Assembly: GCA_014871385.1 (NCBI GenBank)
Contig: CM026426.1
Span: forward strand, 106,684,030 to 106,748,029
Origin: Ceratodon purpureus
Taxonomy: Eukaryota > Streptophyta > Bryopsida > Pseudoditrichales > Ditrichaceae
Direction: 5' to 3'
DNA: 64,000 nt
Shown here: positions 16,101-62,760 of the stretch, piece by piece
How positions within the stretch are numbered: position 1 is the first letter of the stretch
How the letters are laid out: each line of letters begins with the position of its first letter
Notes under the pieces: generated by a model
What the model saw: the letters and a program-made list of their open reading frames with translations, nothing else
Databases searched by the model: none
Told to the model about the DNA's origin: nothing
Program-made: the position numbers and the translations under genes

Positions 16101-16225
16101 TTCAAATACAATGAAATCCTTGCACTCAAAGAAGCAGGGTTCCAACTCCTGCAAAAGAAGCCTATCTCCTCCAGACGCCTCGTCTCCTCACCCCGCCCCC
16201 TGCAAATCTCAGTTCTGTACATGTT
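13122..16225 (+). pseudogene. Decayed, 3'-truncated copy of the SWIM-type transposase gene
   Basis: This region aligns along its length with the whole gene at 40187-43865, from the N-terminal segment (RYKVYGLTHSRMQASTEILTPRR against SYRVYGLTDSLMAASTEILTPRR) to the words CCCCGCCCCCTGCAAATCTC. It then stops, so the C-terminal SWIM finger is missing. The intron after FMTR/FMTE is present at the same place (about 15220-15335), so this is a DNA-level copy rather than a retrocopy. Roughly four fifths of bases agree in the best parts. Many in-frame stops and some indels are present. At least four are CAG-to-TAG against the whole copy: 14526 (CAG at 41579), about 15164, 15461 and 15633. Confidence 0.9.
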
Positions 16226-23479: not shown

Positions 23480-24168
23480 GATAATCACCATGCCCTAATT
23501 CGCTCCGAGTAGGTGACCCAAGAAAGACTGCGCCAATTAATTCACCCAGCGGTTATCAGATACGGGTACTCTAAAACCGCAGAATGCTTCATAAGTGCGA
23601 TATTAATGCAGAACAGTGTCGGTGAATGTCATGCGTAACGACGGTAAGCGTCATTGGAAACGCGTTGATCCGTCAAGTAATACTTCTGAGTCCGTTATTC
23701 TAAACGTGCTTAAACGCTATAACACCATATTCGTTATTTTGGGAGATATTCTTGATTTTGGGAAATCAGCGTGTAGAGAAATGGCGACATTCGTCCCCTC
23801 CCATTTACTTCAATCTTGCGGAAATCAATATTGAATCATTAAAAACACCTTAAAGGAACAATGAGGCCCATGTCATTTAGGTCGAGTGGATCTAAATGCA
23901 CGAACATAGAGGTGAAAACTTAGTAATGTTCATTGATTCATTAAAAACATGTTTAAAGAGAGATGATGATTAAGTCATTTAGGTCGATCACACCTAAACG
24001 CAATATAAACAAGGAAAAAGAATATACCACGTCCCCTGTATTTTTAGTAGTAACAATCCGTTACCTTTTCTAAACCAAGGTTTCAATAAAAGGCAATGTC
24101 CACTCACATAAATTACATTCGGAAATTTGAATAACACAAAAAGTGTGCAAGACAATGAGGCAAAAATA

Positions 24169-24759
24169 CACTACTAGAAAATTGTGACCAAATCAACATA
24201 AAATCAACTCATTTCTGTTGATTGGGGCACTGCATTGACCGTATTCACTGATTTTTGAACTTTTTGTAAAAATCAATAGTTTGCTAAAAATATTTTGTTG
24301 ATTTGAGTAGTGTAATGACCGAATCAACAAAATTTCATCAAATATGGAATCTTTTGGAATCTTTCGGGAATCTCTTGAAAATTTTCTGGAATCTTTTGAG
24401 AATCTTTTGAGAATCTTTTTGGAATATTTTGGAATTTTCTGGAATCTTCTGGAATCTTCTGGAATCTTTTGGAATCTTTTGTAATTTAGGGGTATAGATA
24501 CGGTCCATATTATATTGTTAAATATCAAGAATTTTGCTGAAATTTTTTGTATTTAATTAAAAAATTGGAGAGTTTGGTATTACATCCAACTTAGGAACTT
24601 GTTTGGATTTAGGACTGAAATATTTAGGACTGAAATTTGACCAAATCAACAAAAAATATCAACAAAATTCTGTTACCTACTGTCCAAGTCAACGCGACCT
24701 ATTCAACTGAAAAAATCAACACTTCTTTGTTGATTTGGACGCTGAATTTTCTACTAGTG
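24169..24759. mobile_element. Non-autonomous CACTA MITE, 591 bp
   Basis: The left end is CACTACTAGAAAATTGTG and the right end, read inverted, is CACTAGTAGAAAATTCAG. Both go on to CCAAATCAACA. The element is flanked by the trinucleotide ATA on each side (24166-24168 and 24760-24762), the 3-bp target duplication of CACTA elements. The interior is AT-rich and has a run of TTTTGGAATC-type words (24345-24485) of about 10-11 bp period. It codes for nothing. The ends differ from the larger element at 16834, so it belongs to another subfamily. Confidence 0.9.
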
Positions 24760-24889
24760 ATAGCAGAGTAGAAAATTTGACAAACAGATCAATCGTTTTA
24801 TTCAAAACATAATTACATTGAAATAACACAGAATACTCGTCTATATTGTCTGCGCCATTGCTATCCAGTACATAGTATCCTCTATATGG

Positions 24890-25517
24890 TTATGGAGTCC
24901 CTCCGTAAGCCTCAATTCTTGACTTGACAAATTCCCGTTGGCGCTGACGTGTCCACGACATTCCCTCAACCTGCATCATTGGACTATCAAGAAGACGTTG
25001 CAACTTCTGCCTACGCCTGTCACCGATGCTTGACTCTGGCAGAGAGTGGCCACGGGTACTGGATGGTTTAGAGTGGGAGTCGGCGGACTTCCTTGCCCCG
25101 GATCCAGTAGTTGTTGATCGTAGCCTCGGCATCTGCAAAGGGGATAAATTAGCATTGAGAAAAGATTTCGGTTTAGGTCGAATCGACCTAAACTGCTGAG
25201 TGCAAGTGTAAAGGTCGAACGGACCTTGAACGAGGAGGCCAACATAAGCTAGAACTAGACCTAGATGAGAGTATAAGAAGATCAATCATTTTAGGTGGCC
25301 TCGAGCTAAAATAAGGACATCAGAATGAAACATCATGAAAGAAACATACGGGATGAAACATCAGAAAGGAATGAAAAGCGAATACTGAGGAATGAAAACC
25401 AACCTTTGCCGGTAGTGGTGACGGCATGTCTTCCACATTGTTATAAAGAGCACGCTTCGTAGGGGTAGAACTCTGTCGTTTCGGAGACAAAACCTGCAGT
25501 ACGGTCCGTGGCCACAT
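24890..25517 (-). CDS. Small two-exon gene, unrecognised basic protein
   Basis: Exon 1 (25517 to 25404) starts MWPRTVLQVLSPKRQSSTP and ends in a GTTGGT donor. Exon 2 (25132 to 24890) follows a good TTTGCAG acceptor in phase and ends in TAA. The product is 118 residues, basic, rich in S, R and K (PRLRSTTTGSGARKS, later DRRRQKLQRLL). No domain is recognised. The promoter-like repeat (25525-25850) ends eight bases before the ATG, so transcription may start in the repeat. The intron holds one full and two partial copies of the window's palindrome (25171-25193, 25211-25227, 25290-25310). Confidence 0.5.
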
Positions 25518-31411: not shown

Positions 31412-31544
31412 CTACAACACAAAGGGTATGCATCTTATGAGATTTATATACAGAGCATAAAAAAGATAGAATATAACAAAGTATTGCAAATTATACAAAT
31501 CAATTTCCCAATATTTAGATTAAGTTTTAATTTCCCAACTCTCT

Positions 31545-37500: not shown

Positions 37501-38213
37501 AGTAGCTCCAATGCTCAACCCACCAAAACTCTTTCCCCCCACATTCTCCCTCTCCTCGTGGGGGGGTTTCGGATCCGAATGCGCCCTTGCGAGGGCTCCT
37601 CCCCCCGGGGCCGCATCACCCAATGGAGCCTCCACTGCTGCAAGCAATGCCGCAAGGGCCGCGGCCATGGCAGTAGCTCCAATGCTCAACCCACCAACTC
37701 TCTCCCCCCCCACATTCTCCCCCTCCTCGTGGGGGGGTTTCGGATCCGAATGCGCCCTTGCGAGGGCTCCTCCCCCCGGGGCCGCATCACCCAATGGAGC
37801 CTCCACTGCTGCAAGCAATGCCGCAAGGGCCGCGGCCATGGCAGTAGCTCCAATGCTCAACCCACCAACTCTCTCCCCCCCCACATTCTCCCCCTCCTCG
37901 TGGGGGGGTTTCGGATCCGAATGCGCCCTTGCGAGGGCTCCTCCCCCCGGGGCCGCATCATTCAATGGAGCCTCCACTGCTGCAAGCAATGCCGCAAGGG
38001 CCGCGGCCATGGCAGTAGCTCCAATGCTCAACCCACCAACTCCCTCCCCCCCCACATTCTCCCCCTCCTCGTGGGGGGGTTTCGGATCCGAATGCGCCCT
38101 TGCGAGGGCTCCTCCCCCCGGGGCCGCATCATTCAATGGAGCCTCCACTGCTGCAAGCAATGCCGCAAGGGCCGCGGCCACGGCAGTAGCTCCAATGCTC
38201 AATTTACCAAATC
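31545..38213. repeat. 171-bp tandem satellite, about 39 copies
   Basis: Spacing measured at the word TCGGATCC gives 170, 171 or 172 bp, mostly 171, from 31581 to 38092, hence about 39 units. The unit is GC-rich with C8-like and G7 runs. Because 171 is 57 codons and the unit lacks stops in some frames on both strands, it yields long open frames: minus-strand Ala-rich repeats (AMAAALAALLAAVEAPLNDA) and plus-strand Pro/Ser/Ala repeats. A marked variant unit (TCAATTAATGG at 32311, 35049 and 36589, each followed by a CTTGCTCCCGCCCC unit) recurs after 16 and 9 units and shifts the frame. It probably lies in a large intron of gene A or its upstream neighbour. Confidence 0.95.
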
Positions 38214-43100: not shown

Positions 43101-43865
43101 ACAGCTGCACCGACCTACACTGGGCTGTGGACTAACTATCGCAGGAACACTGTTGAGAAGACAGAGTTCTTCTTCTGCTCCGACGATATTGAGCGCTGCG
43201 TGAAAGGCTCTAAGCGCAAGTGGGTAGCGCACTACTCAAAGGACCAGGAATTCCCCTCCATTCCAGAGGTCTGGCCAGTGAAACTAGGTACTAATCTAAA
43301 ACTTACTGAGATTCTTGCCCTCGAAGCAGCGGGCTTTCAACTTCCGCCTAAAAAGCCGGTCTCCCCAAGACGCCTCTTCTCCTCTGCCCCGCCCCCTGCA
43401 AATCTCAGCTCGGTGCCAGTCCCTGCAGACGCTGACCGCTACCCAGGCAAGAGAGACGGCAAGATGGTGAAGCGCACTGCCACTCGTCCCAATCCGGCGC
43501 AGCGACTATCCATGGGCTCCTCCGAGTCTCTCAAAGCGCGCCTCCGTTCCGTCACCATGATACCTGAGCCGGGCCACGGTTGCATCATTGGGCTGGATTC
43601 GGGCGTCGCTCCTCACATCACACGTTACCAGATTACCATCTGTTCTTACCTTGGTTGCACTTGCCCAGCATTCAAGAAGACGATGACTACGTTCAAAGGC
43701 AGGACTCAGTTCACGTATTGTAAGCACCTATACTACATACTCTTGAAGGTCTGCAACCGTGATCCCGAAGCCGAGCTTTTCATCCATGCGCCTACCTTTA
43801 GCTTCAACGAGGTCAAGCTTCTCCTAGAGAGTGGAATCTTGCGTCACCCCTTGGCGAAGAAGTAG
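40187..43865 (+). CDS. MULE-like transposase with SWIM zinc finger, two exons, whole
   Basis: Exon 1 is 40187-42265 and exon 2 is 42372-43865, joined by a 106-nt intron (GAG|GTATTA to CTGCAG) in phase 0. The product is about 1,190 residues. N-terminal part: VKVEPG, a sumoylation-type site, and TVISLSSDDE, a SUMO-interacting motif. Middle: a C/H-rich segment (CVGWLRCRYQECDF, later CKVCKEPPSC) and a DDE-type core (HVYDATYCRVMTIATCDM; NFKGFMADNAQANWNAVR; HWTQNMVAYTQKHFPEELW). C-terminus: CTCPAF and YCKHLYY, the CxC...CxH of a SWIM finger as in Mutator-like transposases. No internal stop. I chose the ATG at 40187 because it opens the segment shared with the decayed copy. The DDE assignment is by pattern and the third acidic residue is not fixed. 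No terminal repeats were found. Confidence 0.75.
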
Positions 43866-46191: not shown

Positions 46192-47362
46192 TTATGGTCT
46201 ACGACTAATTGCCTCATTAATCTTAGCGTATTGTTCACAAGTAGAACGGTCATCATAATACATTTTCTTCCCGATTGGACGCTCGGCCCTGAATCTAGCG
46301 ATTGTCCCCACAAAGTGGTGTAGGTCTACAAGATATGGCAAAAGTTTCGACAACAAGAAACGATCATCTGCGGCATCGGGATTCTAATTGTTCCAAGTGG
46401 AGAGTAAAAGGACATTGTAAGAATTATTCTGACAGTGCTTGATCGGGCTGTCGTCGATAAAAATTGTGTTGGCTTCGGAATATAGGCCACCAAATTTACG
46501 AAAGAGACCATCAGACATCGGCTTAAGGAAGATGTCCTTCTGAGTCCCGGGTTCCTTCATATATACCGGACGACCTCGAAAATCTACGCCTATAGGAACT
46601 CTCTGACAGTCCTCTTGACCTAGAATTTTGAGCGGATAGACAGGACGAATCGGACCGAACAGATAGTCGCAGATCATTTTTGTCGTCGAAGTCTTCATCG
46701 AACTCCAGACGGTTATGGTTGCGAATGCTGACAACCGACGAAGGAAATCAGCGCAATTGGGCCTGACACAAACAAGCTTGGGGCCCACGACTGCTGGCTT
46801 GGACGCTGGGTGGATGCTAAGGTCATGGCTAACGAATGATTTTCCAGGCCAATTAGGAGTACTGGAGCAGAGTATTCCATTGAGGTCAAGGACAACGTTC
46901 AACCAACCACTCTGAGGTCGCGTCGGGACAGGTCTCAATTCTTCACTAGAACTTACGTCACATCCAGATGCCTCGCGCACCTGGAGAGGAAATACCGATG
47001 ACAGATGGACATTACTATATTATACTAGGACGGGGTTATACGAATGATACAATGAGGACAGTCGCAAGGCAAGTCATTCTCCAAGGAAACAGTGCAACGA
47101 GATATAATGATGGATGAAATACCTGAGCATCCTCGGCTTGGCCTTCTACAACATCCCGATCCTCCATAGGACCCATCGACCTTAATGAATTCTGAGGTTG
47201 ATCGCTAGGAATGACCTCTACGCACGTTGGCAAGGTCAGAGCACACTGGGCCGTGACATCTAAATCCATATTTGTGCGTACAGGCTCATCCGCAGTTTGG
47301 GCCATGACAACATCATCCACGATCCGAAGATCTTCCACTTCCTCATTCACTTCGTGACCTGG
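46192..47362 (-). CDS. FCP1/SCP-type HAD phosphatase-like gene, one internal TAG
   Basis: Exon 1 (47362 to 47123) follows a CCCAG acceptor and is acidic. Exon 2 (46982 to 46192) joins in phase through GTATTT and CTCCAG. The NIF/FCP1 domain reads VVLDLNGILCSS (motif I; DLNG where DxDGT is usual, as in many plant members), FLRRLSAFATITVWSSMKTS (motif II region), then YSEANTIFIDDSP and the N that follows (motif III). After STWNN an in-frame TAG at 46384 is followed without shift by NPDAADDRFLLSKLLPYL and 45 more residues of typical C-terminal NIF sequence, ending at TAA (46192). So the TAG is a recent change or is read through. The family dephosphorylates phosphoserine, for example on the Pol II CTD. 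It lies about 200 bases downstream of gene B on the same strand. Confidence 0.7.
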
Positions 47363-47565
47363 GCATTGCAAGAGAACTATTGAATCATCAGAGAGTGATC
47401 AATGAAGCTGACATAGAAGGGATTGGTAAAAAGTTGAACGATTTAGCTCGAGTCGAGCTAAACAGCCCATTTGTATTAATTACAATCGTTTTGGTACAAA
47501 ATGCACATTTCAGTGAACTACTCTGGTATTAACACCTCATCTACAAAATTCCGAGTTCAAAAAAT

Positions 47566-50500
47566 CTAAGTTTGGGAGGGACCTGAAGATGTCTCGGGAG
47601 CATCTCCCTGAGTCTGATTGTGGGAGGGAGAACGGGGTGGACTGGGACTAGGGTCACGCATGACCTGGTCGGTGCAATGATGGCTTGGCTCAGGCAGTGA
47701 TGCGGGACTCAGATCCGGCTCTGGCAATTTTGCACCACCGGTAGGGGATCCCAAAATCTCAAGTACTCGCGAAGAAGGCAGGGCACTACCTATCGGCTGG
47801 ACGTTGGGCAGAACTGGACCCGCATACGGGAAAAGAGTGGCATTACTCATGCCTTGCAGAACACCCTGCAGTGCCGCCTGCACGGTCTTCTCTATATCCA
47901 TTTTCTGCTCTGCCATCTGATCTTGTAATGCTTGATTCCTATCCTTGGTCGCCTGCAATTCTGCGAGAATAGCTTGAATATCCGGATCGGGAGCGGCTCT
48001 CCCCAACGTGGAGGCTTGCCGAGCTTGAGGATTGACCCTCTTTTCCTTCTGAGCCGGCTTTCCAGTACTTTGCGCACCGCCAGTCTTTCTCCCACTTCCG
48101 GATCCCAGCTCCGGTGCAGAATCCGGTCTCTCATCGTCCGTACGTGTAATGTCGACGTCTGGAAACTCGAGTCTTCTCCCCACGCCACCCTCATATGCGG
48201 TCTGACTTACCGGATCAGAAGGCGGAGCATCGCTCTCATTGCTAATGTCCGCAGCACTGGAGGAGGGGGTCTATTCCTCGGTGGGGGCATCCTCCTCCAG
48301 ATCAACATCGTCACCCTCCTCCACAGCTCTGCCTTTCCCTTTCCGCACGGCTCTGCCGTATTCCGGAAACCGTTCCTTATCGACAAAATATGCGTCGACA
48401 CTAAAATTGGTTGGGTCCAGAGTTAATCCAAGTGCCTGAGCTTCGACCATATGAGAAGAGTCGCTATCATCCGCGACCACGAAAGACGAGATCGAGAGCA
48501 TCTGAAGAAAACAAAGACAAGGTAAACACGGTTTAGCTCGACTCGAGCTAAAGTGTGGAAGTGTGTGCATACATGGTGCATAAGATCAAAACAGTGGAAC
48601 CATTTAACTCGACTCGAGCTAAAGTGTGGAAACTTACCGCGGCGGCCATGAGAGACTTCGTTCCCGCATAGAGCTAATAAACCGCCACCCCAGTACTGCA
48701 GAAAGTGTCGAGGACCTGCAGGTAGAACTCCATCCTTAACTCGGATGGATACATTGCGTACCTCCTTTCGTTGAACTTCCTGTTGTCCTTGTACAGTGGG
48801 TGGTCCGGAGTTGTGTACTTGCTCAGAGGTTCAGGCGTTGACCCGACGTTCTCAAGTACATTATCATCAATGAGAAACATGAGTTTGACGGGTTCCATCG
48901 CGATTCTGCTCTTCGGGGGGTGTCCGCCAAGTCGCTCGTTAGGAGCGGGTAAATACTCAGAGGGGAATCTTCTACGACCACTCAAGGTGTTTCGCTCCAC
49001 CCAAGTGAGCACCTGGGCGAAGTCCTCATCGTCTCCGCAAATGAGAAGCCAGTGGCGAACATCGTGAAACTGGGGCTGCCCCAACTCATCGATCATTTTG
49101 AAGAACTCCATGAAGAAAGGGTTCTCCAAAGTGTAGTTATGCCTTGTCTTGTAGGTTGGGAGGAACCGGAAGTTGATGATTGCGAATGTGAGTGCGCCGC
49201 CCGCCAACCTCCATATATCGGAGGGCCAAGATCCAAAGGCGAGTCGAGGCTCCCTGATGAATGGGAGGAACCACATCTCAGCTGAAGGACACTGAAATGC
49301 ATGTCGAACCTTCAGGAAGGTTTTGAAGAACTCAACCGCATATGGAGAGAGATCCTTGGCCGACTTGTTGCGGAACTGTGTAGCTCTGGAGTTAGTCCAG
49401 TACGAGTCTGGAATATCCCAATCAAGCAGAACGTGCTTCGACTCCTTGGAGACATAGTAAGTCTTCTTGAAATGCTTCCAAGCGGGTACATCAAAGCCGT
49501 CTCTTTTGAATAAATGGAGCGTTGGATTAATGTTGTTGAACTCCGCTTGAGCTACAGCCTTACGTTTTCTCCGCTCCGCCCACTCCTTGACCGAGTAGCA
49601 GTCCTCCAATACACTCGTATTCTGCGTGATGGTAACCTTCGGATTTGTGTACTTCCGACTTGGCCCAGACTTATGCAGGATGAGCTTACACAGCTTGCGG
49701 TGATCTGCCTCTGTCAAGTTCCCGAGCCATTTGAAGAACTCCCTCGGAAGCGTCCCATCCTTGTCCGGAACGAACCCCTTCTTCTCATAGAATTTCTTAT
49801 GAGGAGCTTCGGTGTCGGGATCAATGAGTCCACCACATGCCGCAGACGCGATCACCTCCTTCCACAGGTCCCATGTTTTATCACTGGATGTGATGATAAA
49901 CAGCTCGTTTGTTAGGGAGATAGTGTTCTTCCCTCCCTTCTTTGCCACCATGGCTTGATGCTTCGCCACATCGATCATAGCAAAGCGCTCCCTGATTGCA
50001 TTCACGAAGTTCTGCATACGCACAGGAAGAAACCTTAGATGATGCTGTCACAGAACTACTCTTTAGCTCGAGTGGAGCTAAATTGCTCGAGATACACCAG
50101 AATATTGAAAACAAAGAAGATTATCAATATTTAGCTCGAGTCGAGCTAAACTGCTAATGCTAATGAATCAGTGAACTTACATCGTATGTCTTCGACGCTG
50201 GATTACTTTTTGGACCTGTACTCCTGCGCTCAGCAGCACCAGCGGCAGCATGTTTCTTTTGGGGCTTACCATACTTCACCCACACTTTTCTTGAGGCAAG
50301 TATATTGCTCGCCTAAGTTGGCTTGAAGGGTGCGAGATGGTTCACCCGATTATAGAATGCTGATATCTTTCGCAGCTTGTCTATATCATGCGTCCAAACG
50401 ATGTACGCATCCCACCTCCTGAAGTCCCTCAACAACTCCTCACTAGCGTTATCCTCGATGAGAGATTTGGACGCCGCCACGCTGTGTTGCCCGTTGATGA

Positions 50501-51638
50501 TGTGGAATGTACAGCCTTCCAGATCCTCTTCTTGTTGAGGTCGTGCCTTCGTGTCTGGCATCAGACACAGGGTTTGCTTCTGACCCCTATCAGGCATGTT
50601 GACCAAGTAATTCTTCATCTCCTCCATGCCCCGCTTCTCATATGCGCGGATAGTCCATGCGGTTGGTGCGGGCTTGCACCGCGTCACGTCCACACTGAAC
50701 TTCTTTGGTTGCCCATTCGTTTTAAAGACGAACTCGTCCTCACAATCAGAAAAGAAATTCTGGTAAATGCGATTGGCGTTATCGAAGTCCAGGACCTCTC
50801 CTACCTTGTTCACCTTTGGGAGTTCCCCGAGAACAGAGTTCAAACTTGTTGCCAAGTCCTCCGCAAATAAGAGCAAGTTCTTCTTGGGCTCTGGCTTCTC
50901 AGTTTTCTTCTCAAGGCCTTTCTTCTTCAATGGTGAGAGGGGTGTGGGAGTTGCAGAAGCGCCTCGGCTTTGGGATGGAACTATTGCTCTCCCCCTACTG
51001 CGTCCTGTCTGTTGGCTCCCCATTTGACTCCCGGTTGCTGTCACTCCAGAAACGTCAACATGAGATTTTTCGAGGTTCTGCTTCACCTTTGCCTCCGTTG
51101 CTCGGAGAGCAAGGGTGCAGACAACATTCCTCAGTTTCCACGCTAGGGATTTCGCCGCGAGAGTTCGTCCATCCTTTGTTGCCCATTTCTTGTCCAGTAT
51201 TTCTTGTCTCATCGTGGAGACTATCTCCTCGAAAGGTGAATTGGACAGACTTTCCATTAAGGAAATGGGGTCGAAGAGGTTCTCCACAACGTCTACTACT
51301 ATGGAGAAGAGGTATGGATTAGCCCCGATAGATGAGCAGAGGATCTTTATTTGGTCTTTTCCCTTATTGTCAAACTCGGTGACCTTTGTATCCATGTCGA
51401 TGACTTCGGGATCATCGACTTCTCCCTTGAAAATGGTTGCGAACGTTAGATATGATGTGTATGCAACCCATCGCAGAGTCCAATTTTTGACCTTCGAGGG
51501 GTCTTTGAAGGACCATGCCTCAAATGTGCTTGAGTCATCCCCGTCATCGTCATCTGAATCGGAGATAGGAACAGGCTTGAAGAAATGTCGTAGCGCCTCA
51601 ATTACCCTTGCTTTCGCCTCAGTGCAAGGAGGACACAT
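47566..51638 (-). CDS. Gene B: second ParB-like plus DNA methyltransferase gene, three internal TAGs
   Basis: Exon 1 (51638 to 50178) starts MCPPCTEAKARVIEALRHFF. Near its end is TFHIINGQHSVAASKSLIED, a ParB-like NGQH signature, and later FYNRVNHLAPFKPT. It ends at a GTAAGT donor (TYD). Exon 2 (about 50021 to 48641) follows TATGCAG and carries VLLDWDIPDSYW (motif IV position, DIPD instead of DPPY), then, about 230 residues on, YLQVLDTFCSTGVAVY (motif I) and LYAGTKSLMAAA. Exon 3 (about 48512 to 47566) continues SFVVADDSDSSHMVEAQA (motif II/III region), then an S/P/E-rich tail with a coiled coil (AELQATKDRNQALQDQM). In-frame TAGs lie at 50313, 48674 and 48271, with no TAA or TGA before the end. 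Architecture matches gene A, though sequence similarity is low. The introns carry palindromes (48531, 48602, 50062, 50130). Confidence 0.65.
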
Positions 51639-51663: not shown

Positions 51664-52382
51664 TTTAGCTCGATTCGAGCTAAATGTTGATTCTATTAAT
51701 CAAGTAACCGATGGCATCCCAGCAGTTTAGCTCGAGTTGAGCTAAACTGCTTGGGCTTTCAGCATGGGAGCCTTGCAGTTTAGCTCGACTCGAGCTAAAC
51801 TGAGCAGCTCCAACCATGGGAGCCTTGCAGATTAGCTCGACTCGAGCTAAATAGTAGAGCTCCCATGCATGAATGCCCAAGCAGTTTAGCTCGACTCGAG
51901 CTAAACTGAGCAGCTCCAACCATGGGAGCCTTGCAGATTAGCTCGACTCGAGCTAAATAGTAGAGCTCCCATGCATGAATGCCCAAGCAGTTTAGCTCGA
52001 CTCGAGCTAAACTTCTTGGGAATAAGCATGGGAGCCTTGCAGTTTAGCTCGACTCGAGCTAAACTGCTTGGGCTTTCAGCATGAATGCCCAAGCAGCTTA
52101 GCTCGACTCGAGCTAAACTGCAAGGCTCCCATGCTGAAAGCCCAAGCAGTATAGCTCGACTCGAGCTAAACTTCTTGGGAATAAGCATGGGAGCCTTGCA
52201 GTTTAGCTCGACTCGAGCTAAACTGCTTGGGCATTCCTGCATGGGAGCTCTACAGTTTAGCTGGAGTCGAGCTAAACTGTATGTGACACTCCCAGGAAGT
52301 GGAGGAGAGTTGTACCTCCAGTTTAGCTCGACTCGAGCTAAACCATGGGCTGCTAAGCAGTTTAGCTCGAGTCGAGCTAAAC
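51664..52382. repeat. Array of 14 palindromes on a 53-bp period
   Basis: Palindromes of 21-23 bp (GTTTAGCTCGA, central C or G, TCGAGCTAAAC) start at 51664, 51725, 51778, 51831, 51884, 51937, 51990, 52042, 52096, 52149, 52201, 52255, 52321 and 52360. From 51725 to 52255 the spacing is 52-54, mostly 53. Spacers are about 30 bases and are built from a few half-modules around CATG (CATGGGAGCCTTGCA, GAATGCCCAAGCA, CTTGGGCTTTCAG), some inverted. The array begins 26 bases upstream of the start codon of gene B. Each unit can fold into a long hairpin. Confidence 0.95.
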
Positions 52383-52399
52383 TGTGGGCTTTTATGATC

Positions 52400-53880
52400 G
52401 AATTATCGTCAGTTTTATGAATAATATATTGCATTATTCTTTGTTTTTGTTGAATTTCACATTTTAGCACTGCAGTCAAGCTTTGTTTCATGAGGAGTAT
52501 ATGATATTGGCATTTGGTTTTATACCTCTCGGCCATTTCCAGATGTATTAGCTCCTGTTTCTTTCTTGGAAATTATGTCAATCGTGTTTTGCCTGCAAAA
52601 AGAAATGGTTGCAGAGGATCAGAAGATGGAATAAATATTTGAGACGTTCAATATTCGCACCGAAAAATACGGGAGAAAAGTACAAATGTAATAGGATTCC
52701 TTTTCAGAAGATTCTAATATAAGCAAAGTCGATCAGATTACCAAAACACATAAACATATGGCTCAAAACAATGGCGCCAAAATCAATGCAACGTAGCAAA
52801 AACTGTTATCAACATAACTACAACCTCGACATCAATTAACCTAACGTTCAGTCCTCAAATCAGTAGAACCTATCAATTCCGACATAGAGCAATGATAATA
52901 TTGCAGGAATAGTCGTATCAGTTTTCCAGAATTACTGAAATGCATGTTGTTTGACCTACAATTCGAAGAAAACAAGAAATTCAAACTACACAATCATAAC
53001 AATTACAGTGAATTATAGAACATTCATAGCTTCAATTCAATTCCGCAAATTGAACTCCAACAGAACTTCTGTGCATATTCTTTGTAAAGACAAGTAGCTG
53101 AAATCAACGACACGAATCCATGACAAGAGTTTAAATCAAAAAATCCAAATTTCCAACCACAAGTATCGAAAACAATACAGAGCTTTGGATATTGACAGAA
53201 CTGTTCCAAAAAAAAACCGCACGCGAACTAATAAAAGTGAACGAAGGTGATGACTTACCTGGAAACCCTGTGTAGAAAACCCTGCTTCGTAAACCTCCGC
53301 AACCTCCACTTCACTCCGCGACTGTCAAAAGAACAACGCTCCGCACTTCGAAATTGATGTTGTTGAACCTCCGCACTACGAAATAAAAGTTGCAGAAATT
53401 CAGCATGAACCCAATCCCCAAAACCTATATCAAACCCACAAATTCGCCACAGACTTGCAGGGGAAAACACCCGCGCAACTACTGTTATCAACCGAACCCA
53501 CGAAGTCCTCTTCGCCAGAAAGTATTGAAACCCTAATGAAGAACAAACACTGCGGATACGGTATCAAGAAACCCCAGAACCTAAAACCCTGCTTCTGATC
53601 CTCCCGAAACTACAAAACACTGCGAACAGTACAAAGGAAACACTACAAAGCAACAGGACCCTGACACCACTTCGACGCAGAAAGAACAAAGGAAAACCTG
53701 AACCGAAACTACACAACAAGAGCGCGCCAGAATCAAAACACACACACAGGAGAAAATGGAAAAACACAGGGGACGAAGTCAGAGTCTGGTTCCTAACCCT
53801 CGTGGGGATCGAAAACCGCGCCGCCAAAACTCGCCACCCTTGACCGTGGTTCTGTGGCCCGTCCCCGCGGGTGAAGAGTT
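52400..53880 (-). other. Probable 5' region of gene B, no clear coding
   Basis: The minus strand at about 52595 has CTTTTTGCAG, then about 75 bases to GCCGAGAG|GTATAA near 52527, which would make a small leader exon with an ATG (ATGGCCGAGAG). Further up, to 53880, only non-coding-looking frames occur. I cannot prove the link to gene B. Confidence 0.3.
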
Positions 53881-56110
53881 ATGACTTTCTAACTAATGAC
53901 TACCAATTTAAATTATGGACTTAATGATTTTTAGAGTAGGCAAAATTAATATCCTTCAAAACACAACTTTCCTTCCTTGCATTTTATTAAAAGTAGTGAT
54001 AGTAATAACAATACTGAGGGAATTAAAATGTTTTTATTTATTCATGATATGCAAATATTCAAAACATTGTATGCCTTGTATGACTGGCATGTAAATCAAA
54101 CAAATCTGAATCAATTTAATAAGGTTCTACCTTGACCAATATTCGTACAAATATATTCTTTCCTTATGAGAAAGTAGATTCTTTGGTTCATTTATATAAT
54201 AACAAAAAGAAAATTCAAGTTAAATCACATCTCATTATTTGAATATGAGACGTCTTCAAATTTAATTAACATCATAATCCTTTGAATTATACGAAATTAA
54301 AATTTGTTCAAAGACAAATTTAGATCTAATTACACAAGATTAGAGTTTAAATAATAGTTATTACGAAAGCATCAAATATGAATACACTATTAGCAGTGAA
54401 AAATAATTTACTACACTCTATTGGGAACATATTTACGCAAATGTTATCATCATATTATCATTAAAATACATGTTAGTATAATTATGAATTAGAGTTCTAT
54501 TCCAAATAAATTCCATGCAATTTTGAAGATTTTGGTAATTCAGAATTCATATACAAGCATATACATAGATACTGCAATTTAAAAATTTAATTTTCATTAT
54601 GGATTAATAATTTTAGTTATATCAGAATCACTGAATGGTAATATCAATATTTGTAAGAATTGCGAGTTAAATATTACTGTCCCTTTTTTTATTATATTTG
54701 TATTAACCTGATTCGGGTAGTGAGAAAGTGGAAAAAACTTTTTTTAGGAAGTTACTTTAAAGATAGATAGTGCGGTTCAATCTCCATATTGTTAACCCCA
54801 TATGGTTTGGTAAACCTGCTCTTTCTTACCTTAAGAAGAATTCACCATGATGGCTCCAATAAATCACATGGGATTGGAGAACCATGTCCCTTAATGTGTA
54901 CTCTGAACCGGGTTGAGGTGACCAACCCAATGTGAGTTCCAATGAAAACTAAATAGGATAGGGAACTCCTTTTTTTTTTATTAAGATAAAAAGTATTATC
55001 TTTTAGCCTCTCCGTTACTAAATTTACAGTGAAACATGGAAATATTATAATACAAAAGAAACAAATAGGGTTTATAAATTATAATTCTATTCAAAAGAAA
55101 TTGCACGCAATTTTGGATGTTTTGAAAAAATCCACAATTTTGAACTTCAACGTGGACAAATTAAGAACAATTGAAAAGGATGAAAATGTACATTTTTATT
55201 TAACAGAGGACAATTTTTTCGACATAGTATGCCTCGTATGATTGGCATGAAATTAATTAAATTTTAATCAATTCAATAACGTTCTATCTAAACAAATACT
55301 TCTGCTAATCTTTGTAATAATAATTTGTAATTATATTACGAAAGCATCAAATATGAATACTCTATCAGCAATGAAAATGAATTTACTATACTCTAATTGG
55401 AAACATATTTACATAAATGTTAGCATCATATTCTTCAATTACATGTTGGTATCATAATTTAATTATAATATAATAATATAGTATAGTATACTAAGGCACT
55501 AATATATTCATTTACAATTTTATATTTAATTAATGATTATAATACTAGAATTATAATCTATATTCAAGTATATACAAATCTTAAAATGATATATAAGTAT
55601 ATTCAAGTATATATATGAAGTACATTGTTAAAAATAATAGTATTTAATTTTAGAATTCAATTCATTTATTATGGCAAATTCTTTATATTTTTTAGAAGGT
55701 TTAGGGTTTTTTATATTTATTCATGAGAAGCGAATATTTAAACCATGGTATGCCTTGTATGATTGGCATGTATATTACAAAAATCTTAATCAATTCATTC
55801 ACGTTCTACCTTGACTAATAATCTTACAATTTTATTACATTCTAATAAGAAAGTGGAATGCTTGCTTCATTTGCATAATTTTAAAATACAAAATTCATAA
55901 TTCATAGATTCAAACGAAATTTAATACTACATTAACTAGTTAGCATGGACATATTAGAATACGAGATATACAAATATGAAAGCATCAGATGAAACACTGG
56001 TTTTCGTCTAAAAGAACCCTGTTCTGAAGGCATTCCATTCCAAAAATTGTTTACAATCCACACGGGGAATACCATCAGCAAAAGTTACCAAAAGATGAAA
56101 GTCATCTCTT
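53880..56110. other. AT-rich spacer with a repeat family in direct copies
   Basis: Very AT-rich. A family marked by TATGCCTTGTATGA(T/C)TGGCATG followed by ATCAATTCA..GTTCTACCTTGAC recurs at about 54070-54200, 55225-55310 and 55740-55880 in this orientation, and inverted at 57170-57330 and 57645-57720. No gene is seen. Confidence 0.65.
55495..55885 (+). repeat. Long inverted repeat, left arm
   Basis: About 390 bases match the inverse of 57170-57560, including TTTATTATGGCAAATTCTTT, CATGGTATGCCTTGTATGAT and TAATAAGAAAGTGGAATG. The arms enclose about 1.3 kb that holds the small two-exon gene at 56118-56804. Confidence 0.7.
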
Positions 56111-56117
56111 TTCACAT

Positions 56118-56804
56118 CTATGGTTTCCAAATATTGTATAATCTAGCGGTCGTCCTAACTACTCCTGAAGTCCCCATTCCATATCTGACTTGATTAGCAG
56201 CAAAAAGTAAAATCGTAGAAGTATATCGAAGATGCCTGCAAGTTCTGGCGAAAAGATAAAAACAGGATCAGATGGTATGATGTTTAGGGTTTAAAACGGA
56301 AAAGTGCATGTCAAAAGCAAGGACTCATCCTCCTAACAATCAGAACGAACTCAGCATGAGCCATTAAAATTCTGCGCAATACATACAGCAAACGCAATCT
56401 ATTATTATGAAAACATCAAACTGAGGACAAGGTTAAGGGTTCTGAGGAGATAACAATTCACCTACTCACTCATGTGGTGGGCTCCCCAAATCCACGCTCC
56501 CCTCCTCATTAGAATCAGGCATAGAGAAGCCCTCGCCGGAGGTGAGGGGAAACTTGATGTTGGAAGCGTTCATAATCTCCAGTTGCTCTAGACCATGTGC
56601 AATAGTCCAATCCCACTCCACACCGGGCTGCATTAGGCGTGCAATGAGGTTCCACGGGGGAATCTCTACGCCGCGACCACGGGCGCGTTCCACAGCCATA
56701 AACCAGGGACGAAGCTCCTCCACTCCTTGTGGGGAAACAACCACCTCCCACTCGTCTGGCGGGTAACTTGACACCCTAAAACCACCGCCCGACCTCCTCA
56801 TCAC
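56118..56804 (-). CDS. Small two-exon gene, VEELRPW family
   Basis: Exon 1 runs from ATG at 56804 to 56470, with donor GTGAGT. Exon 2 (56235 to 56118) follows CTTGCAG in matching phase and ends in TAG. The product is about 150 residues: MRRSGGGFRVSSYPPDEWEV, then VEELRPWFMAVERARGRG, PPWNLIARLMQPGVEWDWT, and a C-terminal LLFAANQVRYGMGTSGVV. No domain is recognised. A broken relative lies at 4617-4787. The gene is framed by a long AT-rich inverted repeat. Confidence 0.5.
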
Positions 56805-57169
56805 AGCAAATGAACTACAAGTAGATGAAACAGAAGGGAAACTAAGAATGAAACAACTGTTTCGTCGCCCAAAGGAACTTATGCTTATGAAGCGGCATGG
56901 GCGGGAAGCCGAATGTTCCAGAGTAACGAAGGGGACTTTGACCAGACTCGGTAATGGGACTTTGACCGATGTGGGCTTTCGAAAGTCCGGATTTACTTAA
57001 ATGTGTCATTTTAATTTATTATTAAAGAATTGATTAATAAGATTGTATGCTTAGACAAGCATCTAGAGCCTTTCTCGATATTATATATTAATACTACAAT
57101 TATAATTATGATCATTGGTTTAATACGTTTCCTTTGAATCCATAATTTATGAGTTTTTTTTTGAAAAAT

Positions 57170-57930
57170 GAATGAACCAAACATTCCACTTTCTTATTAG
57201 AATGTAATAAAATTGTACAAATAGAAGTCAAGGTAGAACATTAATGAATTGATTAAGGTTTGTGTAATGTCCATGCCAATCATACAAGGCATACCATGGT
57301 TTAAATATTTGCTTCTCATGAATAAATATAAAAAACCATAAACCTTTTAAAAAATATAAAGAATTTGCTATAATAAATGAATTGATTTCTATAATTTAAT
57401 ACTTTTATTTTTAACAATGTACTTCGTATATATACTTGAATATATTTGTATATCATTTTTAGATTTGTATATACTTGAATATAGATTATTATTCTTGTAT
57501 TATAATCAATAATTAAATCTGAAATTGAAAATGAATATGTTAGAGCCTTAGTATACTATACTATATTATTATGTTATAATTAAATTATGATACTATCATG
57601 TACTTTAAGAATATTAGGCTTACATTTAGGTCAACGTACTCTCACCCCATGCCAATCATACAAGGCATACCATGGTTTAAATATTTGCTTCTCATGATTA
57701 AATATAAAAAATTCAATCTTCTAAAAAACGTATATAATTTGCCATAATAAATGATTTAAATTCTATAATCTAATACTATTATTTTTAACAATGTATTTCG
57801 TATATACTTGAATATACTTGTATATCATTTTAAGATTTGTATACATTAGATTTTAGTTAATTATTCTCGTACTATTCTTAACTGGACATTAAATTGTTAA
57901 TGAATATATTAGTACCTACTTCATATTGAT
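57170..57930 (-). repeat. Inverted-repeat right arm and a second, adjoining copy
   Basis: 57170-57560 is the inverse of 55495-55885. 57645-57930 is another copy in the same orientation as this arm, starting at CCATGCCAATCATACAAGGC. All are AT-rich and non-coding. Confidence 0.65.
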
Positions 57931-58109
57931 TTCATATATCACATATAATAATTAAATTGAGCAAAAATACGTATTTAGTAAATGGAGGTATAAATATTTG
58001 CAACGACATACTTCCCTGTATCAACCTGACTCACGAAATTCAAATAGTTTCAAACAATTTTCGATTTAATTTTATTCCATGTACGAGATATTTAATGTCC
58101 CTAGAAATG

Positions 58110-58192
58110 CCTTCACCCTAAACCCTTAACCCTGGACCTAAGACCCTAAACCCTTAACCCTGAACCCTATACCCTAAACCCTGAACCCTGAT
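58110..58192. repeat. Degenerate interstitial telomere-type repeats
   Basis: Loose copies of CCCTAAA and CCCTGAA (CCTAAACCCTTAACCCTGG, then CCTATACCCTAAACCCTGA). An old interstitial telomeric tract. Confidence 0.7.
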
Positions 58193-58707
58193 AGAGGAAG
58201 AAAAGTTCGCGGCCAAAAGTCAACACTCTGTCTGGCGCTATAGGGACTTCCAACCCATCCCATTTGATTTAATGCACCAATTATTTCGCATCTGCATCTA
58301 TCTAAAGGGCCGAGAAGTATGGAAAGTGGTAATTCCCGCGCATTCTCACACCCCGAAATGTGGAGGGACGAATGGTCATGCATGATTCCCGCCTATTTTC
58401 AGAACTCAAGCGGCATGAAAACGGTCACACGTTAGAGAATGACCTCTGGAATTGTCCCCGCTTGAAGTCTTTTCTCTACTCACTTGCTTCTCTCGCTTGT
58501 AGGAGCTCTCGGCGCCCACTTGGAGGTGGTTGTTTTCTGGGCGGAAGCTGTATTGCGCCGTTTCTCTTGTACGTCTTCTCTTTAGTTCTCTCCGATCATC
58601 AGTACACTTCGTTGATTTCTGCTTGTTGTATGCTTTCCTTTGATTCAAGTCATGGTGTATTTGCAGTGTCTCTCTTTACTTCTTCCAGACGTTTTAGAGC
58701 GGACACC

Positions 58708-58944
58708 GTAAGCGTACTCTGAGTCTGCGACTCAGAATTCCGAAGATGGAAGCACCTATTAAAGCGCCGCTTTTTGCGGACTGCAGTTTAGCTCGACTCA
58801 AGCTAAACTCATGCTTCCCATAGTCTAGGAACAGTTTAGCTCGACTCGAGCTAAACTGCGCCTGGGATAAGTTCTCAAATTTAGAGATTGGTTCCCTTTA
58901 AGGAGTATAATATGCTCTCACAATATTTTGTCTGTTGCATTTCA
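58708..58944 (+). promoter_or_regulatory. Leader intron with two palindromes
   Basis: Bounded by ACC|GTAAGCG and TTGCATTTCAG|GT. Palindromes at 58785-58809 and 58834-58856, 49 bases apart, close to the 53-bp period of the array at 51.7-52.4 kb. Confidence 0.45.
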
Positions 58945-58950
58945 GGTACA

Positions 58951-61788
58951 ATGGACTATGTCTCAGATGATGAGGTACCCGTTGAAGTGCCCGTAAACCG
59001 AGACCTTCTAGACTTCGTGGTTGTACCCTCAAGACAATGGCAGAACAAGACTGTAACAATATATAGTGACGACAATATCCCGTTAGCAGAGGGTTTGATC
59101 CGGAACCCACGGTCCAGCTTGGTATCTGACACGGTTGGTCCCCTTGGTGATTCCGTTGTCGTCGTCCAGGTATCACGTTCTTTGGTCGAAGAAGAGTCAG
59201 AGGATGATTGGAGGTACTCCTTCAAAACGTGGCCTATCAGCCACGTCTATCTGGATGGAGTTAGCCTAGAGCACCATAGTCAACGTGATGTGTATACCTG
59301 TTGGGTTGCAGAGCGTAACCGATCCCTGGGAGATCGTACCCGATCGTATGATAACTCCTCTAGGAATACTCCCCCACCTATATCACGTCACGCTGAGTTT
59401 CTGATGACCCAGCCATCTATCAACTCTGTAGCGGCAAACACGTGCTGCGCTCACCTATGCGTCCAACACTATCCCAGAGATAAAATCTCTAGTCTACGGT
59501 CGCGTATGTACGACAAGACCACAGTGCAGTTCCGTAACCACATAAAACTCGACGTGCATAGACAGATCCATAAGAATTCAGCGGGGAGGAGTGTGGTGAC
59601 TCTGGAGGGCATAGATGTTTGCCCCTTCGCCTGGATGAAGATTATAGGAGTGAGCTCCAGTACATTCTATAGAAATGCCCAGTATGCTGCTGCTGGTTTC
59701 GAGGCTCAATTTCACGGTAATACTGGTTTACGTAAACCTCAAAATCACACAGTCGTAGCAACTGCCGTCCTAGGGGCCATCCTTGACAGGCATGCCGACC
59801 ACATGCCCCACAAGAGTCGTGTTCTGCCTTCAGGGGAGACAGTTGTAGCTAAAGTTTTGCCTTCCAGTTTCAAATGGAAGGAACAGATTCCCATCCTCGA
59901 TGAGCATTTAGCGGACTGCGGATTGCCTCCTATGTCCGCTTCTAACTTGAGCAAGATCAGGAGGCTTAGCTATCCAGAATATTACGCCAAACGGGCAGGA
60001 GACAACTTCGCTCGTTGCTCAAAATGTGATGAGTTCCAGTCCCAGAAGAAGTTGACGGTTACGGGATCTCAGGCGTCCCTGTTGTGGTCTAAGAAAATGA
60101 GGCTGCACAATGACTCTGCAATGGCGCATAGGGACTTGTACTACCTAAATCGATTCAGGTCGAAGGCTACTCCGCATGAAGTTCTTACTATTATGCATGA
60201 CAAGATGGACCATTCGAAGACGGCGTCGCCGGCGTTATCGCACAAGGTCAAACACTTAGACGGTCTCATGAAGCTTCCTCTCGCAGTGACGGGAATGCTT
60301 GCTCATGGGCATGTGGACCAACGTTACGCCCATTATGGCCTTGACATTTACTCACACAAAGCTAATTACACGGTTGGATCGTTTGCGAAGCTCCTTCGGG
60401 ACCTTGAGTCACCCCCCAAATCCACCTCTAGGGAACTCTTTCAAGAGAATCCTTCCCACCCATTGTATGCTGCGCTTTTGCATGGTTCAGAGATGTGTTT
60501 GGATCCTCTTGGCCCTCCTCCTGAGGTTCCTGTTGCTGCTAAACCGTTGCCTCCCATTCTTAACGTCCAAATGGATAACGCTGTCAGTGATAACAAGAAT
60601 AGATTTGTATTTTCATTCTGGTCCCTATTAGTCGCAAAGCGGGTGTTTCGCGAAGTGTACGTGAATTTCATGCTGGTCGGCCATACTCATGACGATATTG
60701 ATGCCCTTTACGGGCGATGGAGCATGGCTTTGCGGAGGGAGGACTTTCCCACAGTACCTCTCCTCATGAAGTCCTTCATGAAACATGAAGCAGTACCAAC
60801 AATTCCGCATCTTATTCAGGAGGTCCCAGATTTCAAGAAATTCATCGCGGAGTGGATGCTTGATGGCGACGATACGTTAATGGGTCACACTAAAGCTCAT
60901 CAGTTCAAATTCTATGTAGATTCTTCAGGATGCCCAGTCATGAAGTATAAAATCTTCTGTCACGACGACGACTGGTTGCCAAAAGGAGATGGTTGTGGCA
61001 TCAAGTTGTGGAAGGAGGATTCAGAAGGTCGATCTTTATGGCCCCGTGGTGTTCCTGGTGCCGTCGCGCCTCGCGAGATGCGGCACCTGCCTGATGTGAT
61101 TAAGGGCTTGTCGGGTTTTGTAGATCATGGGGAGAGGTTATCTTCGGATTCAGTGGAGTCCAGAAGAATCTATGAGCCACTCTCATACTATTGGAACGAT
61201 GTTAAAGAGGCTCTTTCCATCCCCTTTGATGCTGTCCCCGCCTTGGAGCATGGTTTTTGGCCATCCACGCGGCTCGCTCACTCCGTCGAAGACGAGTTTC
61301 AGGATGATGGAACTTTGCGCGAGGAGTTCGCAGAGGATGATCACTTTGTTGGTCACAAACGAGATCGCCCAGGACCGTCGTTCCGTGTTGCGCGAGACCT
61401 TTTTGCAGGGTACTTCTTGGCGCTTCGACCCTGCGATGAAGACAATCGTCCTTTTTGGCTTGCGCGGGCCTTGACTGACCCTAATTCGAACCTCGACCTC
61501 TTGAACACGCTCCAAGTAGAGTTCTACCGCCCAATTTTCCGAGATGAAAATGTTTTGAAATTTTATACCGGCTGGGATGTGGATGGGAGACTTCGTTGGA
61601 CAGTTGAGAAGGATGTACCCGAGTCGTGGCAGAGTACTGATGCAGTCATAACAGCTTGGAAATCCAAAGTTAAAAAAAATGTCAACGAGCGGGGCGTTGG
61701 CAAGGATCCAACGCTGAAGATCCCGCTGGAACAACTGGACATTATAAAGGCCTCCTTGGAGAGATTTGTGTCTCCGGATTTTGAATAA
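58951..61788 (+). CDS. DUF7869-like, transposase/integrase-like protein, 945 residues, whole
   Basis: One exon from ATG at 58951 to TAA at 61788. The start is chosen because GCATTTCAG|GTACAATGG at 58945 is a good acceptor: a leader exon ending near 58707 (ACC|GTAAGC) would be joined over a 237-nt intron that holds two palindromes. The N-terminal 230 residues are unique. A Cys pair region follows (FARCSKCDEFQSQKK, about residue 355), then the conserved core: VLTIMHDKMDHSKTASP, LNVQMDNAVSDNKNRFVF and FMLVGHTHDDIDALYGRWS. This D...DN..DNKN...GHTHDDID pattern is DUF7869 as I know it, and is often compared with RNase H-fold DDE enzymes. That function is inference. The C-terminal 200 residues resemble a chromodomain-like or SH3-like tail (FLALRPCDEDNRPFWLARAL). 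No stops or shifts. Confidence 0.7.
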   Translation: MDYVSDDEVPVEVPVNRDLLDFVVVPSRQWQNKTVTIYSDDNIPLAEGLIRNPRSSLVSDTVGPLGDSVVVVQVSRSLVEEESEDDWRYSFKTWPISHVYLDGVSLEHHSQRDVYTCWVAERNRSLGDRTRSYDNSSRNTPPPISRHAEFLMTQPSINSVAANTCCAHLCVQHYPRDKISSLRSRMYDKTTVQFRNHIKLDVHRQIHKNSAGRSVVTLEGIDVCPFAWMKIIGVSSSTFYRNAQYAAAGFEAQFHGNTGLRKPQNHTVVATAVLGAILDRHADHMPHKSRVLPSGETVVAKVLPSSFKWKEQIPILDEHLADCGLPPMSASNLSKIRRLSYPEYYAKRAGDNFARCSKCDEFQSQKKLTVTGSQASLLWSKKMRLHNDSAMAHRDLYYLNRFRSKATPHEVLTIMHDKMDHSKTASPALSHKVKHLDGLMKLPLAVTGMLAHGHVDQRYAHYGLDIYSHKANYTVGSFAKLLRDLESPPKSTSRELFQENPSHPLYAALLHGSEMCLDPLGPPPEVPVAAKPLPPILNVQMDNAVSDNKNRFVFSFWSLLVAKRVFREVYVNFMLVGHTHDDIDALYGRWSMALRREDFPTVPLLMKSFMKHEAVPTIPHLIQEVPDFKKFIAEWMLDGDDTLMGHTKAHQFKFYVDSSGCPVMKYKIFCHDDDWLPKGDGCGIKLWKEDSEGRSLWPRGVPGAVAPREMRHLPDVIKGLSGFVDHGERLSSDSVESRRIYEPLSYYWNDVKEALSIPFDAVPALEHGFWPSTRLAHSVEDEFQDDGTLREEFAEDDHFVGHKRDRPGPSFRVARDLFAGYFLALRPCDEDNRPFWLARALTDPNSNLDLLNTLQVEFYRPIFRDENVLKFYTGWDVDGRLRWTVEKDVPESWQSTDAVITAWKSKVKKNVNERGVGKDPTLKIPLEQLDIIKASLERFVSPDFE

Positions 61789-61794
61789 ACATGT

Positions 61795-62760
61795 AGCTTT
61801 GAAGTTGGTGGTCTTGAAGTTCTGAATTTAGTGAGATCGCTTATATTCGTTTGAAGACGGCTGAACTGAATTTCGTTCGTCCCTTCATCCAACATTATGT
61901 TTTCAAGACAAAGGTAGATGTTTAGCTCGAGTCGACCTAATCAGTTATAGCGTATTAGTTCTAGCGTATTTATGTTTTGAATACTAGCTAATTACATATA
62001 TTTAATTGGAGGGAACACTACTTAAGTGTTTCTGTCCATTCCTTATTTATCATGTGTACCACATTATAGACCGCAGTTTAGGTCGAGGCGACCTAAACTG
62101 CATTTGGCGTTGAAGTTCGTACTTTACGAGTGCGGGATACCAACAGGTCACCTATAGTTCTTAGTGTAGCTTTTTACTTAGTACCCTAAAGCGTTGATTC
62201 TATATCATATGTACTGCCACATAACAGCCATTTAGGTCGAGGCGACCTAAACGACATCTAGCGTTGAAGTTCCTAGTTTGGATCTCTGTAGTAGAGCCGA
62301 TAACATACATTTGTTGGCATGGGACTATTATGAAGTCCGTATGTTCTTGGATTGCATATCATACTCCGGAAACTGTAGGCAGCTATGTTAGTCGAGCAAC
62401 TTGATTGTTTGTACAGGTCTGAAAGAGCCTGTCACGGATTCAACATTTAAGGAGTGTCGACCTAATTTGTATTTCCACACAAATATATAATATAAGATTT
62501 CCCAGCATATCCGTTGTGTCCATTTCTTGTTATTTGTTTGATGTTCATTTAGGGTGGTTCGACCTACCTTGTATTTTTTCAAGTATTTCTAGTAAACCAC
62601 TACGTTCTTTCATTTCTCATTAGTACTGTGTGATCATGTCCCAAATTAATGGAAATTGCTTATAAGCTTTTCCTTGTCAAGTATGGGACCATTGTGCCCA
62701 TTTTAACTCGACCTGACCTAATGCATTATTTTGGGAGATGATAAATCTCCCAAAATAACG
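61795..62760. other. Spacer with serial decayed palindromes
   Basis: Palindromes at 61921, 62076 and 62231 are about 155 bases apart and each is followed by related sequence (GCGTTGAAGTTC occurs after both the second and the third). Three more decayed copies lie at 62440, 62541 and 62701. No gene is seen. Confidence 0.6.

Follow-up and report, generated by a model that had tools for sequence, protein, structure and literature searches.

A 14-copy palindrome array and dispersed palindromes in the introns and flanks of mobile-element-like genes of Ceratodon purpureus

A window of 64 kb from Ceratodon purpureus (contig CM026426.1; the window is the whole stretch of 64,000 nucleotides analysed) harbors, between positions 51664 and 52381, an odd palindrome of 21 bp, TTTAGCTCGANTCGAGCTAAA, in 14 copies at nearly regular distances beside a gene. 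What is the palindrome for, and does its amplification matter? The reading preferred here, to which a probability of about 0.5 is given, sees in the palindrome a dyad element that acts in cis and belongs to a mobile-element-like family of eukaryotic genes, probably bound by a dimer and amplified at the array. This is the most likely of the readings weighed, followed by an action of the palindrome as RNA and then by selfish spread.

Anatomy and growth of the array

Chance origin of the palindrome matches is excluded: the TTTAGCTCGANTCGAGCTAAA pattern, allowing up to three mismatches, has 27 matches in the window and none in 100 dinucleotide shuffles. A preliminary description spoke of fourteen perfect palindromes; all 14 cores are present, but only eight are symmetric in ten of ten arm pairs, the other six in nine of ten. 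The near-constant spacing of about 53 bp that it reported is borne out, with 10 of the 13 core-to-core distances at 52–54 bp (62, 53, 52, 54, 52, 54, 52, 54, 53, 52, 54, 66, and 39 bp) and tandem-repeat periods (TRF) of 52, 106, and 159. An open reading frame (51901–52536) spans the array; a coding repeat was rejected, as the 53-bp units shift the frame from one to the next and Pfam offers no match to this ORF.

Ten spacers are regular (S2-3 to S11-12). Seven of them are clearly one asymmetric sequence of about 32 bp in either orientation, with 26–32 matches to S2-3 across 32–33 columns: the reverse complement of S2-3 is identical to S9-10 (32/32), the inverted S11-12 is matched at 30 of 33 positions by each of S4-5 and S6-7, and S7-8 equals S10-11 in direct orientation (31/31). 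S3-4 and S5-6 are identical to each other and fit the common spacer less well (23/32), and S8-9 is an A/A hybrid joined at CATG. Of the proposed permutations and inversions of a few half-modules centred on CATG, the inversions and this one hybrid thus survive, while the modules reduce mostly to a single spacer in two orientations. Growth by hairpin-linked shuffling rather than simple unequal crossover was likewise half of the matter. Because spacers occur in both orientations and a hybrid is joined at CATG, inversion or template switching took part; because two units are duplicated exactly over 106 bp (Table 1) and identical spacers recur, ordinary duplication also acted. Both processes shaped the array. 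Each core is its own reverse complement and neighboring cores are thus inverted repeats, so that recombination or template switching between them could have flipped the spacers.

Minisatellites are defined by head-to-tail copies that arise by tandem duplication, and the exact 106-bp duplication places the array among them. A neutral minisatellite, seeded by one element and with copy number, spacing and flips devoid of function, is the default reading of the array as such and probably the correct one. It is compatible with a dyad, an RNA and a selfish reading of the palindrome alike. The duplication, the repeated spacers and the flips speak for it, as do relatives in which the corresponding place holds just three or four copies; the full symmetry still seen in eight of the 14 cores speaks, not strongly, against it.

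Table 1. Palindromes and palindrome-bearing genes in the window.
Feature	Positions	Strand	Remarks
Palindrome array	51664..52382		14 cores of 21 bp, often extended to 25–29 bp; spacers ~32 bp
Exact 106-bp tandem duplication	51775..51986		Copies 51775–51880 and 51881–51986, two units each, 100% identity
ParB-like exon	50181..51638	-	Directly beside array; one in-frame TAG; L019, L020 and L028 open here
Intron 1, GTAAGT..CAG	50012..50180	-	Palindromes at 50062 and 50130
Methyltransferase-like exon	48638..50011	-	Phase 0; one in-frame TAG
Intron 2, GTAAGT..CAG	48502..48637	-	Palindromes at 48532 and 48603
Third exon of ParB-like gene	47569..48501	-	Low-complexity, coiled-coil-looking by eye; one in-frame TAG
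Palindrome between third and NIF exons	47442..47462		In gap, intron boundaries not fixed
NIF/FCP1-like phosphatase exon region	46387..46985	-	Pfam NIF 1.2e-10; 45% identical to L019
Two palindromes 5' of DUF7869 gene	58787..58855		Upstream of acceptor 58945
DUF7869 gene	58951..61788	+	Reading frame uninterrupted; 67% identical over 940 aa to L001:890-3733
Three palindromes 3' of DUF7869 gene	61921..62251		Two are G-type and one is a C/G hybrid; degraded copies (15–16/20) around 62548 and 62702
Four G-type/hybrid palindromes	23876..25310		Near unassigned minus-strand gene; 25172 and 25290 in putative intron 25403–25133

The genes that carry the palindrome

The palindrome, first taken as the unit of the array, also occurs outside it, scattered at particular genes, and has relatives elsewhere. 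A scan of the window with TTTAGSTCGANTCGASCTAAA finds 28 sites of at least 17/20, 14 of them outside the array, and none in each of eight Markov shuffles. These sites, beyond which the window holds no other at this threshold, form three clusters (23.9–25.3, 47.4–52.4, and 58.8–62.3 kb), located in the 64 kb of genome examined at two gene families and one unassigned gene only. The latter, at 22.5–26 kb, has no relative found in the MAG (metagenome-derived assembly) introduced below. Some dispersed sites are G-type, with C changed to G on the left arm and G to C on the right. No site occurs in the 6.3-kb gap between the ParB-like and DUF7869 genes (52400–58700). Eight other tested stretches, which include a satellite, the MULE copies and locus L029 of the MAG, hold none of at least 16/20; the MULE-type transposon genes, in two window copies and in L029, are accordingly without palindromes at this threshold.

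Other features of the window were recorded alongside. The satellite (31535–38202) comprises 39 copies of a GC-rich 171-bp unit with 97% matches and is open in several frames. The two copies of the MULE-like transposon gene pair lie at 13207–16178 and 40241–43829, and their main ORFs share 36 and 43% identity with L029. Between the palindrome-bearing genes, an AT-rich region (55408–57634, 25–34% GC) contains a 464-nt inverted repeat, 91% complementary, with copies 1.3 kb apart. Short runs of plant-type telomere-like repeats (ACCCTAA/CTAAACC) occur at 58115–58191 and 28862–28895. A minus-strand ORF at 30073–30639 has a GNHRLAAW motif, ParB/Srx-like by eye; neither PHROGs nor NCBIfam gives it a match at E≤1.

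The array lies directly 5' of the first homologous ParB-like exon, within an intron or leader whose acceptor is not fixed. The ParB-like ORF (441 aa, minus strand) continues through introns 50180–50012 and 48637–48502, scored for splice sites with a hand-entered weight table; these GT-AG introns adjoining the array fit the nuclear location first proposed. Among 13 window ORFs compared with Pfam, only DUF7869 and NIF rise above cut-off. The names ParB-like and methyltransferase-like rest on weak profile matches. The ParB-like exon has no ParB_N domain above the Pfam cut-off; aligned by hhalign with 12 of 14 Rhizobium ParB_N matches it gives P=0.005 at a probability of just 7%, compared with P of 0.27 and 0.64 in cross controls, the alignment falling at INGQHSVAAS. 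The methyltransferase-like exon of L019, a relative from the MAG, reaches E=0.03 and 14.6 bits against Pfam N6_N4_Mtase, below the cut-off of 26.7, and the exon compared with three Rhizobium sequences gives P=0.036 at a probability of just 1.4% (hhalign); no DPPY motif is seen in the alignment. Predicted structures are too poor to use, with a mean pLDDT of 38.5 for the methyltransferase-like protein and 29 for the DUF7869 protein. The third exon resembles that of L019 weakly (27% over 91 aa, pairwise E 0.005), a similarity absent in tblastn, and the L019 similarity of the NIF exon extends beyond the in-frame TAG to 46207. The ParB-like gene of the window looks broken: across 46207–51638 each of its four homologous exons is interrupted by one in-frame stop, in all four cases TAG and never TAA or TGA. 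The DUF7869 frame of 966 aa is free of stops. Chance, decay or deamination of the CHG type could produce such TAG-only stops.

Relatives occur in an unrelated assembly. Of three exact-pattern matches in genome_contigs, one (L001) is a 4.3-kb contig titled as the cyanobacterial MAG AVDCRST_MAG81, and it contains a DUF7869 gene with palindromes on both sides. Two other loci of this assembly, L019 and L020, contain the ParB-like, methyltransferase-like and third exons in the order of the window (L019 the NIF exon also), and palindromes of type TTCAGCTCGANTCGAGCTGAA occupy the introns and flanks that correspond to those of the window gene. A distant relative on a third contig of the assembly (L028, 28–33%) has TTTATCCTCGANTCGAGGATAAA in the ParB–methyltransferase intron and four further copies 5'. 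Identity to the window is 28–39% for the ParB-like and methyltransferase-like exons, 45% for NIF and 67% for DUF7869. All seven comparable introns between the ParB-like, methyltransferase-like and third exons (two each in the window, L019 and L020, one in L028) contain palindromes, 12 in total, and all seven have a GTAAGT donor and a CAG acceptor. In alignments of the L019 and L020 introns the first palindrome and its surroundings align, and copy numbers differ (two vs. one, three vs. one). The cluster 5' of the ParB-like gene comprises three or four copies in two relatives vs. 14 in the window. The DUF7869 genes provide a second comparison: between the 5' flanks of the window gene and L001 (451 and 594 nt; proteins 67% identical), the best local match is a 27-bp palindrome (window 58832–58858), identical at 27 of 27 positions and not extending beyond. 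No mention of DUF7869 was found in the open PMC literature searched.

Three observations suggest that the MAG contigs C71, C74, C243, and C269 are eukaryotic contaminants: GT-AG introns interrupt the ParB-like genes (the 5' intron of L001 being a presumed one), 385 of 386 genomes of the phylum of the cyanobacterial MAG lack the palindrome at zero mismatches, and DUF7869 matches occur in 0 of 14 control genomes. C80, the contig of L029, appears eukaryotic from its similarity to the window transposon only. A public cyanobacterial MAG would thus include apparently eukaryotic, mobile-element-like contigs, likely through assembly contamination. Forty further MAG contigs, covered to their first 12 kb at most and mostly bacterial-looking by ORF cover, contain one core of the (C/G)TCGANTCGA(G/C) type vs. 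18 in L001, L019, L020, and L028. Two Rhizobium matches (L002, L003) have one palindrome each in 8 kb with near-identical flanks and were taken as unrelated. The viral_contigs set yielded no match for four palindrome versions and no relative of the DUF7869 ORF or of the ParB-like (A3) and DUF7869 (A1) alignments, which rules against a viral origin; plasmids and phages yielded no match to 51700–52400.

Symmetry of the arms and what may read it

None of 51 sites at the family loci falls in a coding exon, though 73% of the spans is coding; spans and exon bounds (from splice sites and homology) were chosen by the analyst, and n was lowered by 13 for the probability of this count. Sites within ORFs not accepted as genes were counted as non-coding, as were those inside listed ORFs that run past a donor (L019 4315, 4357, and 5828; L020 2949 and 4391; L028 816–844). 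The threshold was at least 17/20 in the window and approximately at least 16/20 in the relatives (TTYAG form), with L028 sites taken by palindrome span. This count and the 41-site set below omit L020:1432 (15/20), L019:496 (16/20), L001:106 and L001:558 (15 each), window sites 62446, 62548, and 62702 (15–16/20) and every 14/20 site.

Symmetry was evaluated at 41 sites, array sites excluded, from six gene loci and two sources. The consensus centre TCGANTCGA is common to all groups, with positions 1–4 unpaired in 9, 5, 6, and 0 of the 41 sites. Arm positions 5, 6, 7, and 8 differ between gene copies and nevertheless pair in 35, 39, 40, and 40 sites. At position 8, pairing is 40/41 within sites vs. 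0.38 between sites (T:T 19, C:C 16, A:A 5), these counts being of sites rather than independent events, with the 16 C:C sites from two related loci. In L028 the shared centre is bordered by different outer arms, TTTATCC..GGATAAA, both in the corresponding intron and in the 5' flank; these arms do not fit TTYAG/CTRAA as splice or branch signals, which were rejected. Symmetry continues outward at positions 11–13, where the score is 78 compared with a within-group shuffle mean of 57.6 and maximum of 74 (5000 shuffles), and shows no clear excess at positions 14–16 (44 vs. 39.6).

Arms that change together between relatives suggest that something recognises the symmetry, and co-change at the level of groups fits a dyad read by a dimer. 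In the preferred reading, the ParB-like/methyltransferase-like/NIF and DUF7869 genes carry dyad elements, generally as multiple copies, in introns and flanks, and a dimeric DNA-binding protein, perhaps encoded by the family, would recognise the TCGANTCGA centre together with family-specific arms. Recognition by a dimer would require both arms to change together. A cluster of a few copies 5' of the ParB-like gene would then have grown by tandem duplication to the 14 of the array. That the ParB-like and DUF7869 genes form one element is suggested by their shared palindromes and proximity in one window, with the qualification that arm types differ within the MAG. Because the DUF7869 locus there is TTTAG-type and the two ParB-like loci are TTCAG-type, a single shared binder is not obvious. 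A fixed protein site also does not predict the site-specific symmetry that continues at positions 11–13, which agrees with a hairpin or with mutation that perfects palindromes.

The strongest competitor, although unlikely, is an element acting as RNA, in which hairpins of the pre-mRNA or paired intron hairpins affect splicing or small RNAs and the array is a source of dsRNA. The sites lie in introns and gene flanks, all known ones may be transcribed, and the arms covary, site-specifically so at positions 11–13. Of four introns or flanks folded in silico, two show their two palindromes paired with one another (by eye), and the array is predicted to fold into long duplexes, a fold without shuffle control. 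Against this, arm mismatches read in gene sense at 37 sites (the 23.9–25.3 kb cluster, of uncertain strand, excluded) comprise 6 G.U (five at three L001 sites), 5 A.C and 18 other, no wobble excess at what is low power; the 21-bp core by itself would form just a weak hairpin (-9.7 kcal/mol), and the centre is conserved, including the would-be loop, the A/T next to N (32 of 41 sites).

Somewhat less credible is that the palindromes are selfish short repeats that spread without function in non-coding DNA, with template switching that perfects palindromes maintaining their symmetry. The sites agree with this in their non-coding location and variable number, and so do the local duplications and inverted spacers; the site-specific outer symmetry fits a mutational mechanism, and Volvox offers a precedent in the part of the source available (PMC2670323). 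Palindromes of the Volvox type would be expected to spread in non-coding DNA regardless of gene, and within the 64 kb this is not the pattern: sites are restricted to particular genes, as the empty remainder of the window and the eight empty stretches illustrate. They are also kept in homologous introns of genes at 28–39% identity and at 27 of 27 positions between the DUF7869 loci.

A bolder and improbable version of the dyad reading gives the family its own address system: palindromes in introns and flanks would be read by a family-encoded dimer co-evolving with the arms, and the array would be a nucleation or marking centre. The reader would be the ParB-like or the methyltransferase-like protein; the shared centre contains GANTC, and the sites may be likened to bacterial parS or modification sites. 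Finally, a CRISPR-like system or an assembly artefact has next to nothing to commend it except the regular spacing, the feature behind the initial CRISPR-like label: CRISPR spacers are unique, whereas those here are copied from one another (seven of ten one sequence in two orientations, one a hybrid, two identical), the surrounding genes are eukaryotic and spliced, and the palindrome is dispersed in the window with relatives in an unrelated assembly.

Known systems and meaning

DNA transposons such as CACTA/Spm contain multiple short subterminal or internal repeats, direct and inverted and family-specific, that bind transposase or regulators. The palindromes described here, known from sequence alone, resemble them as multiple short direct and inverted sites specific to an element family, and differ by lying in introns of element-like genes. 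In bacteria, REP/BIME palindromes are associated with RAYT, and parS or iteron arrays are bound by ParB-like or Rep proteins. Common to these and to the present case are palindromes that adjoin a gene for a candidate binder and mosaics in two orientations; in contrast, the genes here are eukaryotic and spliced, the ParB relationship is weakly supported, and no HUH protein stood out among the genes seen.

The 17-base core has no match in the open PMC literature searched, and among the matches listed for the 10-base palindrome halves none looked related by title and start of abstract. The closest cases in the searched open literature, among the matches listed and as far as the available parts of the papers go, are organelle palindromes of Volvox and Lobosphaera. 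In Volvox carteri, palindromes make up about 80% of non-coding organelle DNA, with the plastid motif TCCCCTTTAGGGA, and nuclear copies were judged inert and organelle-derived (PMC2670323). They too are short, intergenic and intronic, and in both orientations; from the part of the account available, the present palindromes differ in motif, in their tie to particular spliced genes and in having symmetric, family-specific arms. In mitochondria of Lobosphaera incisa, the LIMP palindromes, suspected in processing and rearrangement, share dispersal and an invariant centre, and differ in being mitochondrial and in their pentanucleotide stems, with no gene-family link described in the accessible part of the source (PMC4524435).

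So far, dispersed palindromes of eukaryotes have been considered selfish or inert, for instance in the available part of the Volvox account (PMC2670323). Here, the same introns keep the palindrome in distant relatives, the sequence changing and the symmetry staying, which amounts to a natural experiment in recognition. Three arm types share one centre and each accompanies its own gene copy, which makes the binder, hairpin and selfish readings directly testable. If the reader is indeed encoded by the family, this would be a eukaryotic element with address sites built into its own introns.
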